NCBI RefSeq assembly: GCF_023223645.1
Contig: NZ_JALKBY010000004.1
Coordinates: 62,001-126,000, forward strand
From: Natroniella sulfidigena
GTDB lineage: Bacteria; Bacillota; Halanaerobiia; Halobacteroidales; Halobacteroidaceae
DNA length: 64,000 nt
Direction of reading: 5' to 3'
Positions 7,804 through 64,000 of this stretch are shown one piece after another (the stretch's first letter is position 1; each line of letters begins with the position of its first letter). Below the pieces are notes generated by a model. That model was not told the origin of the DNA, did no database searches, and saw only the letters and a list, made by a program, of their open reading frames with translations. Position numbers and translations under genes: made by a program.

Positions 7804-8954
7804 TTTCTATCACCTTCTTTTCTTGCCTGCTCTCTAGCCCAACTATCAGCTGCTAAAATATCATCTAAAGTTGGATTCTTAACTGATTGATGTGCCTCCA
7901 TAACCTTTTGGATTATTTGTGGAATTTGAATAAACTTTAGCTCACCATTTAAAAATTGAGCAACAGCTATCTCATTAGCGGCATTTAATACAGCAGGCAT
8001 TGTTCCCCCAATCTTTCCAGCTTGATAAGCAAAATCTAAACAAGGGAATAATTCCCTCTTTGGTTCTTCAAATGTTAACTTTCCAACCTCGGCCAACTCT
8101 AAACTCTCCAGTCGGTTTTCTTTCCGTTTAGGGTAAGTCAAAACATATTGAATCGGTACTTTCATGTCAGGAAGGCCCAACTCAGCTAGCATTGAATGAT
8201 CTTGATATTCAACTAAAGAATGAACAATACTTTGGGGATGAACTACCACATCTATCTGTTCAAAATCTAGATCAAATAACCATTTCGCTTCAATTACCTC
8301 TAATCCCTTATTCATCAAAGTAGCAGAATCAATTGTAATTTTGCCTCCCATATCCCAATTAGGGTGGTTTAGGGCTTGCTCAACTGTTACTTCTTCTAAA
8401 TCTGTAGCATTAGCCTCTCGAAATGGCCCCCCTGAAGCAGTCAAGATAATTCTGCTAACTTGCTCTTGCTCCTCTCCTTGCAAAGCCTGAAAGATTGCAT
8501 TATGTTCACTGTCTATAGGTAAGATAGATACACCATATTGCTTAGCTTCTCTCATTACAATCTCTCCTGCAGTTACTAATGTCTCTTTATTAGCTAAGCC
8601 AATATCCTTTCCTGCTTTAATAGCCTCTAAGGTAGGCTTAACCCCTACAGCACCTACTACTGCATTAACTACCAAATCAATTTCAGCTAAAGTAGCAGCT
8701 TTAATCAAGCCACTTTTTCCTACTAAAACCTCTGTTTGCAAATCTTTTAAATTATATTTTAACTCAGTTGCTGCTTCTTCATTCATCAAAACAGCATATT
8801 GGGGCTTATATTTCTTAACTTGGGCAGTCAATAACTCTACATTTTGATTGGCTGTTAGGGCCAACACTTCAAAATCATCTGTTAAATTATCAATCACCTC
8901 TAAGGTCTGTTTTCCAATCGAGCCTGTTGAACCTAAAATACTTATCTTTTTCAT
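7800..8954 (-). CDS. dxr: 1-deoxy-D-xylulose 5-phosphate reductoisomerase
   Basis: Second enzyme of the MEP isoprenoid pathway; rearranges and reduces DXP to MEP using NADPH and a divalent metal. 384 residues, typical length. The N-terminal Rossmann motif is GSTGSIGKQT (8-17). Active-site regions include PIDSEHNAIFQ (near 146-156), TASGGPFR (near 172-179) and HPNWDMGGKITIDSATLMNK (near 192-211). Ribosome site GGAGG precedes the ATG. It is separated from the upstream ytvI gene by a 300-nt repeat-filled gap, so it may be transcribed through the repeat or from a promoter inside it. Confidence 0.97.
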   Translation of the reverse strand: MKKISILGSTGSIGKQTLEVIDNLTDDFEVLALTANQNVELLTAQVKKYKPQYAVLMNEEAATELKYNLKDLQTEVLVGKSGLIKAATLAEIDLVVNAVVGAVGVKPTLEAIKAGKDIGLANKETLVTAGEIVMREAKQYGVSILPIDSEHNAIFQALQGEEQEQVSRIILTASGGPFREANATDLEEVTVEQALNHPNWDMGGKITIDSATLMNKGLEVIEAKWLFDLDFEQIDVVVHPQSIVHSLVEYQDHSMLAELGLPDMKVPIQYVLTYPKRKENRLESLELAEVGKLTFEEPKRELFPCLDFAYQAGKIGGTMPAVLNAANEIAVAQFLNGELKFIQIPQIIQKVMEAHQSVKNPTLDDILAADSWAREQARKEGDRN

Positions 8955-8968
8955 GATAGCCTCCTAAC

Positions 8969-9257
8969 TTGTGACTAGTTGTTGGTAGCTTGTGATTAGT
9001 AACTTGCTTATAAAATTTAAAGTGCGATCTTATTACAAAATAGCTTAACTTCAATTTACAATGTACAATTTACAAAATTGACAATTAAAACCTTTAAATC
9101 TTATAATCAAAATCAAATAAAGCTTATTATCACAGGGTTTTTCAGAGAACTTAAGTTTTTAAGGTCTTGATCTTTAATTGTAAATTGTACATTCCGTCAA
9201 TTGTGAAGCTCTATATCAATTAATTTTAACTAGTCACCAATCACTAATTACTAGCTA
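8969..9257. repeat. Composite intergenic inverted element with heptamer-phased arms
   Basis: The gap between dxr and ytvI is almost wholly a nested inverted structure made of degenerate 7-mers. Outer left arm 8969-9006: TTGTGAC, TAGTTGT, TGGTAGC, TTGTGAT, TAGTAAC. Outer right arm about 9221-9257 reads, on the minus strand, TAGTAAT, TAGTGAT, TGGTGAC, TAGTTAA. An inner pair uses another heptamer: 9053-9089 (AATTTAC, AATGTAC, AATTTAC ... AATTAAA) and its complement at 9172-9204. The core holds a shorter inverted pair around CCTTTAAA and TTTTTAAGG. No ORF fits. Related elements occur at 34122, 38334 and 63260. Confidence 0.8.
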
Positions 9258-10313
9258 TTACTTAACAACCGAAATCACCCCTGATTTAAAGATCGAATTT
9301 AAAATAATTATAAATAAGGGGCCAATAAAGAATCCAGCTACACCAAAAAATTGAACCCCTAAATAAAGTGCCATCAAAGTTGCTAAAGGGTGAACTCCTA
9401 TATTCTGACCTACTATTTTAGCTTCTGTTGACTGACGTACTACTGCAATTACAACATAATTAATTAATAATCCAAATCCTAAACTTGTATTACCGATTAT
9501 AAGATTATAAATAGCCCACGGAAGAAAGATCAAACTCGGGCCAATAACTGGAATTAAATCCAAGACTCCACAGACTAATCCAATTACAATTGCATAATTA
9601 CTTCGCAAGATCAAAAGACCTATAATAGAGATTATTGTTGTATTAGTAATTAAGATCAATTGAGCTCTAATAAAACCTACTATCGAACTGATAATATCCT
9701 GTTGCATAGCTCGAATCTTTGCTCTCCAATTACTAGGAATATGAGCTAAACAGCTTTCTATAATTAATTCTTTATCCTTACTCATAAAGAAAGTAGCAAT
9801 AAAACTAATAAAGAAGGTTATCACTACCCGTGGCAAACTTCTAACTACTCCCAACAAGTAAGTAAAAGAGAGGTTAATCATGTTTTTAGCTTGGTTATAA
9901 AGAACTTGTAAATTATCAAAGATAGTCTGCCTAACAGTCTCTGGTACTTTCCATTCATCAAATAAAGTACTTAAATTTCCATTCTGCTCTAATAGTTGCT
10001 CAAATCTAACCCCTAATTTATGATAATCAGGCAGATCATTTACTAACTTATCCAATTCAATCAATAATCTAGAAATACTAATTGTCAATAATAAACTAAT
10101 AAAGATTATTATAATTGCTAGTACTATAGCTACTGCTATACCACGTGAAAATCTAGCTTCCTTTTCCAAAAAAAGAACAGCAGGTTCGATCAAGCTAGCT
10201 ACAACAACAGCAATAATAAAAGGTAGCACATAACCAATTACATAATTTAAAATAATAATACTAGCAGTTGACACTCCTAATAAAATCAACCATACTTTAT
10301 AACTGCTCTTCAT
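9258..10313 (-). CDS. AI-2E family transporter (YtvI-like permease)
   Basis: Polytopic membrane protein of the AI-2E/PerM family, 351 residues. It has paired N-terminal membrane segments (residues 8-48), a third near 60-85, a soluble stretch around 90-150, then five C-terminal segments. The family signature GVLDLIPVIGPSLIFLPWAI lies near 251-270. Members include B. subtilis YtvI (sporulation-associated) and Na+/H+ antiporter-like proteins of halophiles; substrate cannot be deduced. It lies 12 nt from cdsA and downstream it meets the heptamer repeat element. It is an insertion relative to the Bacillus cdsA-dxr order. Confidence 0.87.
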   Translation of the reverse strand: MKSSYKVWLILLGVSTASIIILNYVIGYVLPFIIAVVVASLIEPAVLFLEKEARFSRGIAVAIVLAIIIIFISLLLTISISRLLIELDKLVNDLPDYHKLGVRFEQLLEQNGNLSTLFDEWKVPETVRQTIFDNLQVLYNQAKNMINLSFTYLLGVVRSLPRVVITFFISFIATFFMSKDKELIIESCLAHIPSNWRAKIRAMQQDIISSIVGFIRAQLILITNTTIISIIGLLILRSNYAIVIGLVCGVLDLIPVIGPSLIFLPWAIYNLIIGNTSLGFGLLINYVVIAVVRQSTEAKIVGQNIGVHPLATLMALYLGVQFFGVAGFFIGPLFIIILNSIFKSGVISVVK

Positions 10314-34093: not shown

Positions 34094-34121
34094 CTCTTAT
34101 CTAATTATACCAATAATTATC

Positions 34122-34232
34122 AGGAGTCAGGAACCAGGAGTCAGTAAGTTCAAAACCATTTAATTCAAGAACTCTTAAAGAACTTAATCTTATGATTTTA
34201 CTGATTCCTCATTCCCTATTCCTAATTCCTAT
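34122..34232. repeat. Heptamer-phased inverted element (AGGAGTC type)
   Basis: Left arm units: AGGAGTC (34122), AGGAACC, AGGAGTC, AGTAAGT in 7-nt phase. Right arm 34198-34232 on the minus strand: AGGAATT, AGGAATA, GGGAATG, AGGAATC, AGTAAAA. The core is ~50 nt and AT-rich. It lies directly before flbD. Same construction as the elements at 8969, 38334 and 63260 but with a different heptamer. Confidence 0.75.
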
Positions 34233-34249
34233 AGCACTAAAAGATTCGA

Positions 34250-34396
34250 TCTAATTTCACGGGCAGACACGGGGACCTGCTCCTACGACAAAACCAAAGT
34301 TCATGTAGGGACGAACCTATATGGATATGGTATGAGTTTCACGAAGGGTCTTGATTTTTAGACCCGTAGGTGAAAGGACTCGTAGAGTCGCCCCTT
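34250..34396. other. Non-coding GC-richer block with several small hairpins
   Basis: This part of the flgE-flbD gap is clearly GC-richer than its surroundings. It includes CGGGCAGACACGGGGACCTG (from about 34259), a 5-bp stem GGGTC/GACCC (34346-34365) and GACTC/GAGTC (34377-34389). The string CACGAAGGGT near 34341 recurs inverted near 63436-63445. I see no ORF or RNA family; it looks like another dispersed intergenic repeat. Confidence 0.4.
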
Positions 34397-34413
34397 TAAT
34401 TTTTAATGATCGA

Positions 34414-34443
34414 CTTAGCCTCAGCCTTAAACTCAAACTTAAA
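34414..34443. repeat. Hexamer-phased degenerate repeat
   Basis: Units in 6-nt phase: CTTAGC, CTCAGC, CTTAAA, CTCAAA, CTTAAA. It ends a few bases from the flgE stop codon. Same family as 60066-60101 (CTTAGC/CTTAAA). Confidence 0.6.
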
Positions 34444-34448
34444 TTTTA

Positions 34449-35768
34449 TTATCGCTTGAGATTAACTAACTCCTGTAAGATTTCATCAGAAGTTGTAATT
34501 GTTTTTGAATTAGACTGAAATCCACGCTGTGTACTGATCAATTCAGTAAACTCCCGTGACAGATCAACATTGGACATCTCCAAAGTACCAGCTGAAATTT
34601 CACCAAACCCTCCTGAACCAGGAGTTCCGATATTGGCTGGCCCGGAGTTGTTAGAGACTCGATATAAGGTATCACCCTCTTCTGATAGACCGGATGGATT
34701 ATTGAAGGTAGCTAAGCCTAACCTACCCAACGTCTGAGATCTACCATTATCATACGAACCAGTGATTTCTCCTGAACCATCAATCGTAAAGCTCTGTAAA
34801 TCACCGCTGGTATAACCATTGACGGTATCGACATCGGCTGTAAAGTCGTTAGCCTGCTGAGTCATATTGCTAAAATCAAGCGTAAACTCAAGATCTTCTA
34901 CTCCATCTATATCTAATTCATCTAAATCAGCAACTCCTATGTCAATTGAATCTCCTTCGTCCACATTTCCACTTTGATCAAAGATAATCGGATCGTTTTC
35001 ATTTAATTCTACAAAGTCACCATCATCAATCCTACCATATACATTCCATGTTGTCTCTTCTTCTCCTACATCAGTTTTTACAAACCTCAAATCTAAATTA
35101 TGCCTACCACCCTGAGAATCATAAACTTGACTATTTATACTCCGGGATATTTCAGCTAAATCTCTTTTTAAATCATCATCATCACCATTAAGAATATCTT
35201 CTACACTACCTGCACCATCATCAAATACATCAACATCTTTATTTAGATTTCCATCAAAATTAACTCTAGATGTTGCATTGGCATCCATCGACTGTTTCAA
35301 ACTTATATCATCTAAATCAGCATTAGTATCTATCGCTCCATCAGCATCAGCTTCCCAACCTTGCAGACGATAGCCATTGTTATTATTGACCAAGTAACCA
35401 TCACTATCAAAGTCCATCGCTCCTGCTCTGGTATAGTATCTTTCAGTTCCATCATCTACCATAAAGAAGCCATTTCCTTCTACTGCCAAATCAGTATTCC
35501 GACCGGTTGACTGTAAGCTACCTTGACCCATATCCTTATCGATACTACCTAATTGTGTACCTAATCCCACCTCTTGCGGATTAGTACCCCCTCGTTCATC
35601 CTGCGGTGCAGAAGCTCCCTGCATCCTCTGGCTCATCATCGACTTAAATGTAGCTCGACTCCCTTTAAAACCCGTTGTATTAACATTCGAAATGTTATTA
35701 CCAATAACATCCATTTTATCCATATGTGCATTCAATCCAGAAACTCCAGAAAACATCGATCTTAACAT
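34449..35768 (-). CDS. flgE: Flagellar hook protein FlgE
   Basis: Hook subunit of 439 residues. N-terminal rod/hook motif SGVSGLNAHMDKMDVIGNNI (near 8-27) with NISNVNTTGFKGSR following, and NGFFMVDDG in the D1 region (near 98). The middle Asp/Asn-rich part (130-300) is the variable surface domain. The C-terminal helix has NVDLSREFTELISTQRGFQS (near 402-421) and TTSDEILQELVNLKR. Upstream is flgD, its cap. It has a GGGAGG site. Confidence 0.95.
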   Translation of the reverse strand: MLRSMFSGVSGLNAHMDKMDVIGNNISNVNTTGFKGSRATFKSMMSQRMQGASAPQDERGGTNPQEVGLGTQLGSIDKDMGQGSLQSTGRNTDLAVEGNGFFMVDDGTERYYTRAGAMDFDSDGYLVNNNNGYRLQGWEADADGAIDTNADLDDISLKQSMDANATSRVNFDGNLNKDVDVFDDGAGSVEDILNGDDDDLKRDLAEISRSINSQVYDSQGGRHNLDLRFVKTDVGEEETTWNVYGRIDDGDFVELNENDPIIFDQSGNVDEGDSIDIGVADLDELDIDGVEDLEFTLDFSNMTQQANDFTADVDTVNGYTSGDLQSFTIDGSGEITGSYDNGRSQTLGRLGLATFNNPSGLSEEGDTLYRVSNNSGPANIGTPGSGGFGEISAGTLEMSNVDLSREFTELISTQRGFQSNSKTITTSDEILQELVNLKR

Positions 35769-38307: not shown

Positions 38308-38333
38308 CTTTTCTCACCCCCTTTCAAAAGAAC

Positions 38334-38477
38334 AGTTTACGGTGTACAGTTGATAGTTGATAGTTAAAACTTTCAAGATTTAAATCCTTAAGAGTCCTTA
38401 ACACTGTGAAACCTTATATCTATCTTGTTTCTTTATTTTGATTTTTACTAATTACTAGTCACTAGTTACTAATTACT
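38334..38477. repeat. Heptamer-phased inverted element (AGTTGAT/AGTAACT type)
   Basis: Left arm, five units: AGTTTAC (38334), GGTGTAC, AGTTGAT, AGTTGAT, AGTTAAA. Right arm 38443-38477 on the minus strand: AGTAATT, AGTAACT, AGTGACT, AGTAATT, AGTAAAA. The phase is exactly 7 throughout both arms, with a 74-nt AT-rich core containing TTTAAATCCTTAAG. It occupies the fliK-motE gap. Confidence 0.82.
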
Positions 38478-38525
38478 TTCATCCAACTTTACTTTAATAT
38501 AAATTAAATTTTAAAGTTGGATGAA
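38478..38525 (-). terminator. Hairpin after the MotE-like gene
   Basis: A perfect 14-bp inverted repeat (38478-38491 with 38512-38525, TTCATCCAACTTTA and complement) with a 20-nt loop, 6 nt after the MotE-like stop codon. There is no T-run on the minus strand, so it may be a 3' stabiliser or weak terminator inside the operon. Confidence 0.45.
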
Positions 38526-60012: not shown

Positions 60013-60065
60013 GTTCTTGTTTAGAAACTATGCTTTTTAGGGGTTTTACTTTTTTTAATGGTTTA

Positions 60066-60101
60066 CTTAACCTTAGACTTAGCCTTAAACTTAGCCTTAA
60101 A
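60066..60101. repeat. Hexamer-phased degenerate repeat (CTTAGC/CTTAAA)
   Basis: Six units in exact 6-nt phase: CTTAAC, CTTAGA, CTTAGC, CTTAAA, CTTAGC, CTTAAA. It is followed by the small hairpin GACCGAAGGTC (60106-60116). Same family as 34414-34443. Confidence 0.68.
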
Positions 60102-60202
60102 CTATGACCGAAGGTCATTTTGCTCTTGTAATTGGTAATTATTTCTTTAACTTAGTAGAACATATCTGTACTTATTTTTGTCCACTTACATATAATAAAA
60201 AT

Positions 60203-63226: not shown

Positions 63227-63259
63227 GCTATATTTTACCCTTAATCTCTTTTGTTATTC

Positions 63260-63405
63260 AGTTGACAGTGAACAGTTGACGGTTGACAGTTAAAAAATAA
63301 ATTCAAAACCACTCTCTAAACTCCTAAACATAAGACTTTTCAACCGTCTTAAGTATTTAAGGTTTTACTCTTTAACTGTAAACTGTAAATTGTAAATTGT
63401 ACATT
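63260..63405. repeat. Heptamer-phased inverted element (AGTTGAC/AATTTAC type)
   Basis: Left arm: AGTTGAC (63260), AGTGAAC, AGTTGAC, GGTTGAC, AGTTAAA. Right arm on the minus strand (63405 down to 63371): AATGTAC, AATTTAC, AATTTAC, AGTTTAC, AGTTAAA. Both arms have five units in exact 7-nt phase and end inward with AGTTAAA. The ~75-nt core includes CGTCTTAAGTATTTAAGG. It lies between the rplS promoter and the methyltransferase. Confidence 0.85.
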
Positions 63406-63449
63406 TGTTTCTTACTTCCCCCTCCGGGTTCTTTGAACCCTTCGTGATG

Positions 63450-63473
63450 AAAAAATCCGCTCTTAGATTTTTT
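63450..63473 (-). terminator. Terminator after the SPOUT methyltransferase
   Basis: AAAAAATC (63450-63457) and GATTTTTT (63466-63473) form an 8-bp stem with an 8-nt loop directly after the stop. On the minus strand the stem ends in a T6 run. A second stem GGGTTC/GAACCC (63426-63440) lies beyond it. Confidence 0.65.
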
Positions 63474-64000
63474 CTACCACCAAGCTTCACCTAACAATCT
63501 ATCCAAGATAATCGCAGCAGCACTTCTGACTGACAGATGATTATAATCACCTGGTCCATAAATTGGCTCTAAAATATAATCAGCAGAATTCATAGTCTCT
63601 TTAGTCAAACCCCAACCCGTTCCTAACAAGATCAAATAAACTTCTTCTCCTTGCTGAATCTCTTGCCTTAACTTCTTATAACTTATAGTATTAGAATAAG
63701 TCCTAGCATCAGTCGTGACTAAAGTTGGCTCCTTGCCTTCCTTAGCTGTTATATCTGCTATTACATCTTCAAGCTCAGCCTTAATCTCAAGCACACTAAA
63801 TGCCTCTTTACGATCTGGATTATATTCTGCTCCAAAATCTCCTGCCCAATAATCCTTCATCCGCTTAACTAATCCCTGCTGAGAATCTAAATGGTTTACT
63901 ATATAATACTGACCAATATTATATGTTCTACTGGCTCGAGCAATATCATGTAAATCTAAATTAGTAACTGTAGTAGTAATTACTTCCATATTCTTATTAT
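63474..64000 (-). CDS. SPOUT RNA methyltransferase family protein (partial, 5' end beyond window)
   Basis: The frame is open to the window edge, so the start lies outside; NKN precedes the internal Met (MEVITTTVTNLDLHDIARAS), as in relatives that read KNGEVITTAITN. This family (Methyltrn_RNA_4) is typically encoded beside trmD and rplS. Knot-forming C-terminal region: VYLILLGTGWGLTKETMNSA (near 121-140 of the visible part) and GDYNHLSVRSAAAIILDRLL (near 148-167), which bind SAM. The substrate RNA is unknown. It is separated from rplS by a terminator and a heptamer repeat element. Confidence 0.88.
   Translation of the reverse strand, partial: NKNMEVITTTVTNLDLHDIARASRTYNIGQYYIVNHLDSQQGLVKRMKDYWAGDFGAEYNPDRKEAFSVLEIKAELEDVIADITAKEGKEPTLVTTDARTYSNTISYKKLRQEIQQGEEVYLILLGTGWGLTKETMNSADYILEPIYGPGDYNHLSVRSAAAIILDRLLGEAWW

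Follow-up and report, generated by a model that had tools for sequence, protein, structure and literature searches.

Inverted arrays of degenerate heptamers in Natroniella sulfidigena as probable arms of mobile hairpin elements

What is the repetitive DNA between dxr and ytvI in Natroniella sulfidigena, and how might it have arisen? We studied this gap (8969-9257) within a window of 64,000 nucleotides (GC content 34.7%) from a genome of 2.63 Mb in 32 contigs. An earlier note had described the gap as a composite of nested arms with 7-nt phasing, and this description holds: there are two nested elements, with TTAGTGA/TAGTAAC-like outer arms and CAATTTA/CAATTGA inner arms (Table 1).

The dxr-ytvI gap and the 7-nt period

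Four family copies (L002, L003, L005, and L006) are 85-95% identical to the inner element and lack the outer arms. In the sister species (genome G001), the ytvI-dxr gap has the same outer arms, and the left arm is 70 nt versus 42 nt here, a difference of +28 nt (4x7). The insert of the sister species lies at similar boundaries (TTATTAC...TATATCAATTAA), and its recognisable inner-element part is inverted relative to 8969-9257. The outer arms of the sister species hold a differing insert, so we read the gap as an element of one heptamer type lying within the core of another, with a nested part that is not the same in the two species. In another genus of the family (G003, locus L065), the dxr gap contains a GGAATCA-type element, of the same heptamer type as the second element of the window. 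In the remaining relatives that we read, the dxr gap is short and bare.

A perfect sigma-70-like promoter sequence (TTGACA-18-TATAAT) spans 9078-9107. It is made up of an inner heptamer plus core and is common to copies L003, L005, and L006. We found no site resembling a Rho-independent terminator (a GC-rich hairpin with a T run after it) in 8900-9300, and there was no Rfam match in the window.

Table 1. Heptamer elements of the window and the parts of the composite in the dxr-ytvI gap
Feature	Coordinates	Strand	Basis
Outer left arm, TTAGTGA/TAGTAAC-type degenerate heptamers, adjoins dxr start codon	8967..9008	+	sequence; sister-species ortholog
Inner element, CAATTTA/CAATTGA type, TTAC (9033-9036) before it, TATATCAA at its end	9037..9219	+	family copies
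Inner left heptamer array	9052..9088	+	lag-7 cluster 9050-9088; TRF period 7
AT-rich core of inner element, from the AATTAAAACC junction	9089..9172		conserved among copies
Inner right heptamer array, reverse-complement type, TACATTCCGTCAATTG phase break as in other copies	9173..9204	+	sequence; copies
Outer right arm, CACTAAT/TACTAGC heptamers, reaches ytvI stop codon	9228..9257	+	sequence; similar sister-species arm
Second element, GGAGTCA/GGAATTA arms	34120..34231		lag-7 cluster 34196-34235; sequence
Third element, left arm CAGTTGA type, right arm TTACTAA type	38333..38478		lag-7 clusters 38330-38383, 38435-38481
Fourth element, left arm CAGTTGA type, right arm AACTGTA to AATTGTA	63259..63410		lag-7 clusters 63257-63301, 63362-63413

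The earlier note named four elements in the window (at 8969, 34122, 38334, and 63260). We scanned the window by autocorrelation, with clusters defined by at least 20 matches out of 28 at a given lag. At lag 7 there were six clusters, all within these four sites, while other lags gave 0-3 clusters. We then scanned a genome sample of 464 kb, made up of the window and 20 stretches of 20 kb on a grid that was fixed blind to the hits. At lag 7 we found 78 intergenic and 3 genic clusters, as compared to 0.7 in dinucleotide-shuffled intergenic DNA, and blastn with 8950-9270 as the query gave 80 matches in the same genome. These were the two checks that the note had named (an excess of 7-nt phasing and further copies), and both came out in its favour.

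The only other base lag in the 464-kb sample that was clearly enriched was 6 (19 clusters versus 0.5 shuffled). Lag 14 (2x7) gave 29 intergenic clusters, lag 12 gave 14, and all other lags except 6 and 7 gave 0-5; lags 8-11 and 13 were at background. About 10% of the intergenic bases in the sample fall within heptamer elements. The arrays lie in 53 of 208 codirectional gaps, 3 of 23 divergent gaps, and 1 of 20 convergent gaps. They consist of tandem, degenerate, intergenic 7-nt units in many copies, as do the STRRs, so the proposed likeness to cyanobacterial heptamer repeats is upheld. Many different heptamers share this single period, both in the sample and in the loci from other phyla described below, so it is indeed the period rather than the sequence that is kept.

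A second, hexamer hairpin element (units CTTAAA, CTTAGC, and CTTAAC; 6-nt period) occurs at 60034-60103 and 34410-34455. In the sister species, heptamer elements sit inside this element or replace it. Smaller modules are also present. A module of about 58 nt with two small hairpins (CTCCGGGTTCTTTGAACCCTTCGTGATGAAAAAATCCGCTCTTAGATTTTTTCTA; 63421-63477) recurs as an insertion where the arm and core of heptamer elements meet, and at L033:13480 it was found in only one of the two species. A related hairpin module (CACGAAGGGTCTTGATTTTTAGACCCGTAGG) lies at 34340-34372 and elsewhere also within heptamer arms. At L045:2620-2720, a TGTGAG-type repeat (CACTCACACTCACACACA) lies in a hairpin that is nested within a mixed heptamer element.

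Anatomy and turnover of the elements

The general plan of the elements was drawn from 30 loci matched by blast and from 20 copies in the sister species. The arms are built of several kinds of heptamers (CAGTTGA/CAGTTTA, CAATTTA/CAATTGA, TAATAGT, TTAGTGA/TAGTAAC, GGAATTA/GGAGTCA, and GCAGTAA). Read from left to right, a full copy of the CAGTT type starts with the flank TTA and a perfect hairpin (CAATNATG...CATNATTG). Next come an array of degenerate heptamers that ends in AGTTAAA and an AT-rich core of about 85 nt, after which the array returns in inverted form and another perfect hairpin (TGATATNNAG...CTNNATATCA) closes the copy. There are thus palindromes at or near both ends, as in PATEs and other elements derived from IS200/IS605. 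The sequences of these hairpins are not the same (CAATNATG versus TGATATNNAG), so the simple inverted ends of a classical DDE MITE are absent.

An AGTTAAA-like unit stands at the inner end of the arm in 46 of 62 cases and at the outer end in 28 of 62. The element at 34122 had been set apart as an exception to this inner-end rule, which was mistaken: its arms end in AGTCAGTAAGTTC and (right arm, reverse complement) ATCAGTAAAATC. It had also been claimed that each element uses its own heptamer and that its two arms are complementary. The pairing stands, since 29 of 31 neighbouring pairs of arrays are more alike inverted than direct, but the arms at 38334 have differing heptamers. At 63260 the left arm is CAGTTGA-like and the right arm drifts from AACTGTA to AATTGTA. 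Across elements, the likeness of an arm to its own partner was 0.526, versus 0.496 +/- 0.007 for shuffled partners.

In the end hairpins, the variable positions covary. In the TGATATNNAG hairpin, pooling both species, the variable dinucleotide is AA/TT in 17 copies, TT/AA in 7, and AT/AT in 4, so it is complementary in 28 of 28; the other end hairpin is complementary in 21 of 24. The core of the AGTGGCANNNTGCCACT hairpin has 34 exact copies and 4 copies with one mismatch in the window's genome, while the reversed control pattern has 0, and 14 of the 15 hairpins that we fetched abut a heptamer array. When folded as single-stranded DNA, one copy gave -53.6 kcal/mol, versus -18.5 +/- 2.9 for shuffled sequences (z = -12).

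In the sister species, the copies number at least 40; they are closely similar, about 220 bp long, and sharply bounded. Fifteen of these that we compared are 79-100% identical (mean 89%) inside the hairpins. Agreement among the columns of the alignment falls to background within a few bases outside ATTA/C...ATCA/AT, and the flanks are unrelated. TTAC is present on the left in 14 of 16 aligned copies and TCAA on the right in 15 of 16; a T invariably follows TCAA, which is not predicted by IS608-type ends. At the gaps in N. sulfidigena that are orthologous to these copies, the copy is missing or another element is present, including the hexamer type. (Between the two species, intergenic sequence has diverged too far for empty sites to be defined to the base.) The hairpin or MITE-like organisation that had been suggested is borne out by these dispersed, sharp-ended, closely similar copies.

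We read 13 orthologous gaps base by base in the two species. At L033:12086, L045:5991, and L045:10852, the two species have different heptamers in one arm or in both. Arrays differ in length by 7 nt (-7) at L045:14836, as well as by the four units at the dxr arm, and single 7-nt gaps are seen in the arms of L123 and L125. At L033:13480, only one of the species has small inserted hairpin modules (55-60 nt) within the arms. Terminal hairpins are exchanged at L045:500 (TGATATAAAGTGGCA... in one species and ATAAAATGACCAAAGGTCATTTTAT in the other, both perfect) and at L045:18100 (ATGACC...GGTCAT versus ATGGGC...GCCCAT). L045:17960 and L045:12016 look like replacement of an older hairpin element and not like simple insertion.

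The earlier note also held that the two arms are homogenised together, and this finds no support in our data. In a comparison of eight orthologous elements, the left and right arms of one species (likeness 0.67 and 0.70) resemble each other no more than arms of the same side do between the species (0.74 and 0.70), and at L045:10852 one arm alone changed type. Paired change affects the short terminal hairpins and is not evidenced for the heptamer arms.

How the elements may spread and change

We propose that these are non-coding, hairpin-forming, intergenic mobile elements of about 150-230 bp, palindrome-ended and non-autonomous (PATE-like or MITE-like), and we give this reading a probability of roughly 60%. 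The element has dispersed as a whole unit, as is shown by the closely similar copies that have sharp ends and unrelated flanks. The copies carry no gene, so the enzyme must act in trans. The mover would most likely be a single-strand transposase (HUH, IS200/IS605-type) working on the end hairpins. The genome has copies of tnpA (C4, C29, and C6), one of which has ATTAC before it; we found no TnpA near the 15 fetched end hairpins and no gene-bearing relative with the same ends. After insertion, the arms may gain or lose whole 7-nt units by slippage and may be replaced one at a time. The period would outlive the sequence because the arms turn over by 7-nt steps and by replacement of an arm. The end hairpins would be kept perfect by paired changes, either through selection or through template switching within the palindrome. 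Where template switching takes place between imperfect inverted repeats, it homogenises their arms and inverts the spacer (PMC8604942), and it would yield both the paired hairpin changes and the inverted insert at dxr. The composite at 8969-9257 would then be one such element inserted into the core of another. This mobility is suggested by the comparison of two species, and we do not claim recent movement within one strain.

Alternatively, the arrays might be non-mobile, STRR-like microsatellites that change by ordinary slippage, with the inverted pairing being secondary. Variation in 7-nt steps, heptamer arrays of many sequences across many phyla, and cores that differ among loci in other phyla all agree with this. 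But slippage alone favours no one period, yet lags 8-11 and 13 are at background; it gives no inverted pairing, which nearly all of the pairs have; and it does not explain 40 closely similar full copies with a common core and two different end hairpins. We consider slippage without mobility unlikely. It is less likely still that the elements are primarily selected RNA or DNA structures, such as terminators, attenuators, protein-binding arrays, or sites of translational control (as proposed for the TAACTGA repeats). Such roles would fit the perfect covarying hairpins, the strong fold, the positions near start and stop codons, and the inward TTGACA-18-TATAAT of the inner-element copies. However, the gaps of relatives are bare or otherwise filled, and neither a terminator-like site near the element nor an Rfam match in the window was found. 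A general terminator role is unlikely because arrays are in only 1 of 20 convergent gaps and 8900-9300 has no terminator-like site. The promoter likeness is largely an arm heptamer plus AT-rich core (16 seen versus 10.7 +/- 2.5 with shuffled cores), so we rejected a promoter function: with this weak enrichment, the likeness follows mainly from the TTGACA that the arms contain.

Movement by a RAYT transposase, as for REP/REPIN elements, seems the least probable of these explanations. The genome does have one RAYT-like gene (L055:1477-2022, minus strand; 71.5 bits to NF047646, under the curated cut-off of 80). However, its flanks contain GTAGGGGCGAACCCATGTGTTCGCCC palindromes and no heptamer element with the same ends, and the end hairpins of the heptamer elements have no GTAG tag. 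In other words, the heptamer element is not a GTAG- or CGTC-tagged palindrome adjoining a RAYT gene. A RAYT/Y1 match is present in 5 of the 6 genomes with CAGTT arrays versus 75 of the 149 genomes of the phylum, which are too few to demonstrate an excess, so we set RAYT aside as the driver. The GTAGGGGCGAACCCATGTGTTCGCCC palindromes by the RAYT-like gene are a separate REP family. We also set aside reverse transcriptases (two matches, which on reading their sequences resemble group II intron proteins) and carriage by phages (just 2 viral contigs match the CAGTT pattern described below, versus at least 119 stretches in genomes). A shared heptamer grammar, NANTNYN, was discarded as well: given that a heptamer can be read in seven rotations on either strand, most AT-rich ones match it by chance.

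Occurrence in other phyla and relation to known systems

We searched one genome from each of 84,980 species for three CAGTTNN units, a gap of 66-96 nt, and three NNAACTG units. (We chose the CAGTT pentamer, and the scan is silent on other heptamers.) At least 119 stretches have this inverted layout; by record titles they represent about twelve phyla, and chance is excluded for the layout because the pattern has 30 fixed bases. Among the matches listed are Acidobacteriota, Planctomycetota, Gammaproteobacteria (Thiocystis, Chromatium, and Beggiatoa relatives), Bacteroidota, Bacillota, Cyanobacteria, Chloroflexi, Gemmatimonadota, Chlorobiaceae, Polyangiaceae, Desulfobacterales, and one Nealsonbacteria bin; some of these stretches are from metagenome bins, whose taxon may be misassigned. 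At 52 of the 119 listed loci, the free dinucleotide is common to both arms, versus 13.6 +/- 3.3 when shuffled across loci, to which genome-wide preferences contribute. The listed loci have 265 clusters at lag 7, partly by selection, versus 2-13 at unrelated lags, and they include 97 arrays of other heptamers. Neighbouring pairs that the pattern did not select are more alike inverted in 19 of 30 cases, with many of the exceptions from one locus. The cores that we compared are unrelated between loci. The ends of the arrays are non-random in phase (the outer first failing letter is C in 71 of 267 cases versus about 38 expected), which carries little weight as the loci are not independent.

The trait is patchy in the phylum of the window, with CAGTT arrays in just 6 of the 149 genomes. 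Richness in arrays is specific to certain lineages, since another member of the phylum (G115) has only 4 intergenic arrays in 295 kb. The reversed control pattern TTGACNNTTGACNNTTGAC is frequent in G008 and G193 (14/9 and 2/14 hits) and is another heptamer type. At several loci (L138, L182, L208, L214; L143, L200, L202), a promoter-like TTGACA lies between the inverted CAGTT arms in some Acidobacteria and Gammaproteobacteria, and a hairpin does so in some Bacteroidota, as if the arms were set around native regulatory DNA. It is possible, though we are doubtful, that inverted heptamer arms are one widespread non-coding class in about a dozen phyla, with a dedicated enzyme or recognition mode that imposes the 7-nt step and CAGTTNN as a recurrent form. 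If so, the number and sequence of the units would vary while the step stays fixed.

Intergenic heptamer repeats have been recognised in cyanobacteria since 1990 and later in Xanthomonas and Beggiatoaceae, and we know of no agreed mechanism for them. Published work covers their over-representation, the TAACTGA repeats of Beggiatoaceae, Cyanobacteria, and Bacteroidetes (PMC4679880), and the cyanobacterial STRR heptamers, which go back to Mazel 1990 (as cited in PMC4692102). The TAACTGA and STRR repeats share the 7-nt unit, intergenic location, and patchy spread with our elements; 7-nt indels are reported between strains (PMC4679880), and AACTG is common to the TAACTGA repeats and our CAGTT arms. 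They are described as direct repeats, with a single indirect repeat noted in a Beggiatoaceae genome (PMC4679880). The GGGAATC pairs of Xanthomonas are also tandem, degenerate, intergenic heptamers, mostly between codirectional genes, with 70 and 75 pairs in convergent orientation per genome; in contrast to ours, they use one G-rich heptamer that is discussed as a quadruplex, and the available part of that paper describes no end hairpins or unit of dispersal (PMC4692102). REP, BIME, and REPIN elements are likewise palindromic, intergenic, and dispersed, but they are 20-40 nt long with a GTAG or CGTC tag and no 7-nt arrays (PMC3733652, PMC3116915).

With its end hairpins and core, the anatomy is closest to that of the PATEs of Haloquadratum walsbyi, although a parent transposon was not found near the fetched hairpins. 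PATEs are short, non-coding, and in high copy, with palindromes near both ends; no target duplication is reported for them, and they are hit by smaller repeats, which recalls the 55-60-nt modules in our arms (PMC3119063, in the portion available to us). The same portion does not mention heptamer arms, and this genome differs in that we found no IS605-type transposon sharing the end palindromes. Here the heptamers make up the arms of discrete, well-delimited hairpin elements that have spread within a genus, and the orthologous settings make the turnover of the arms readable. An old curiosity thereby becomes a set of testable questions, namely which enzyme moves the elements and why the step is seven.
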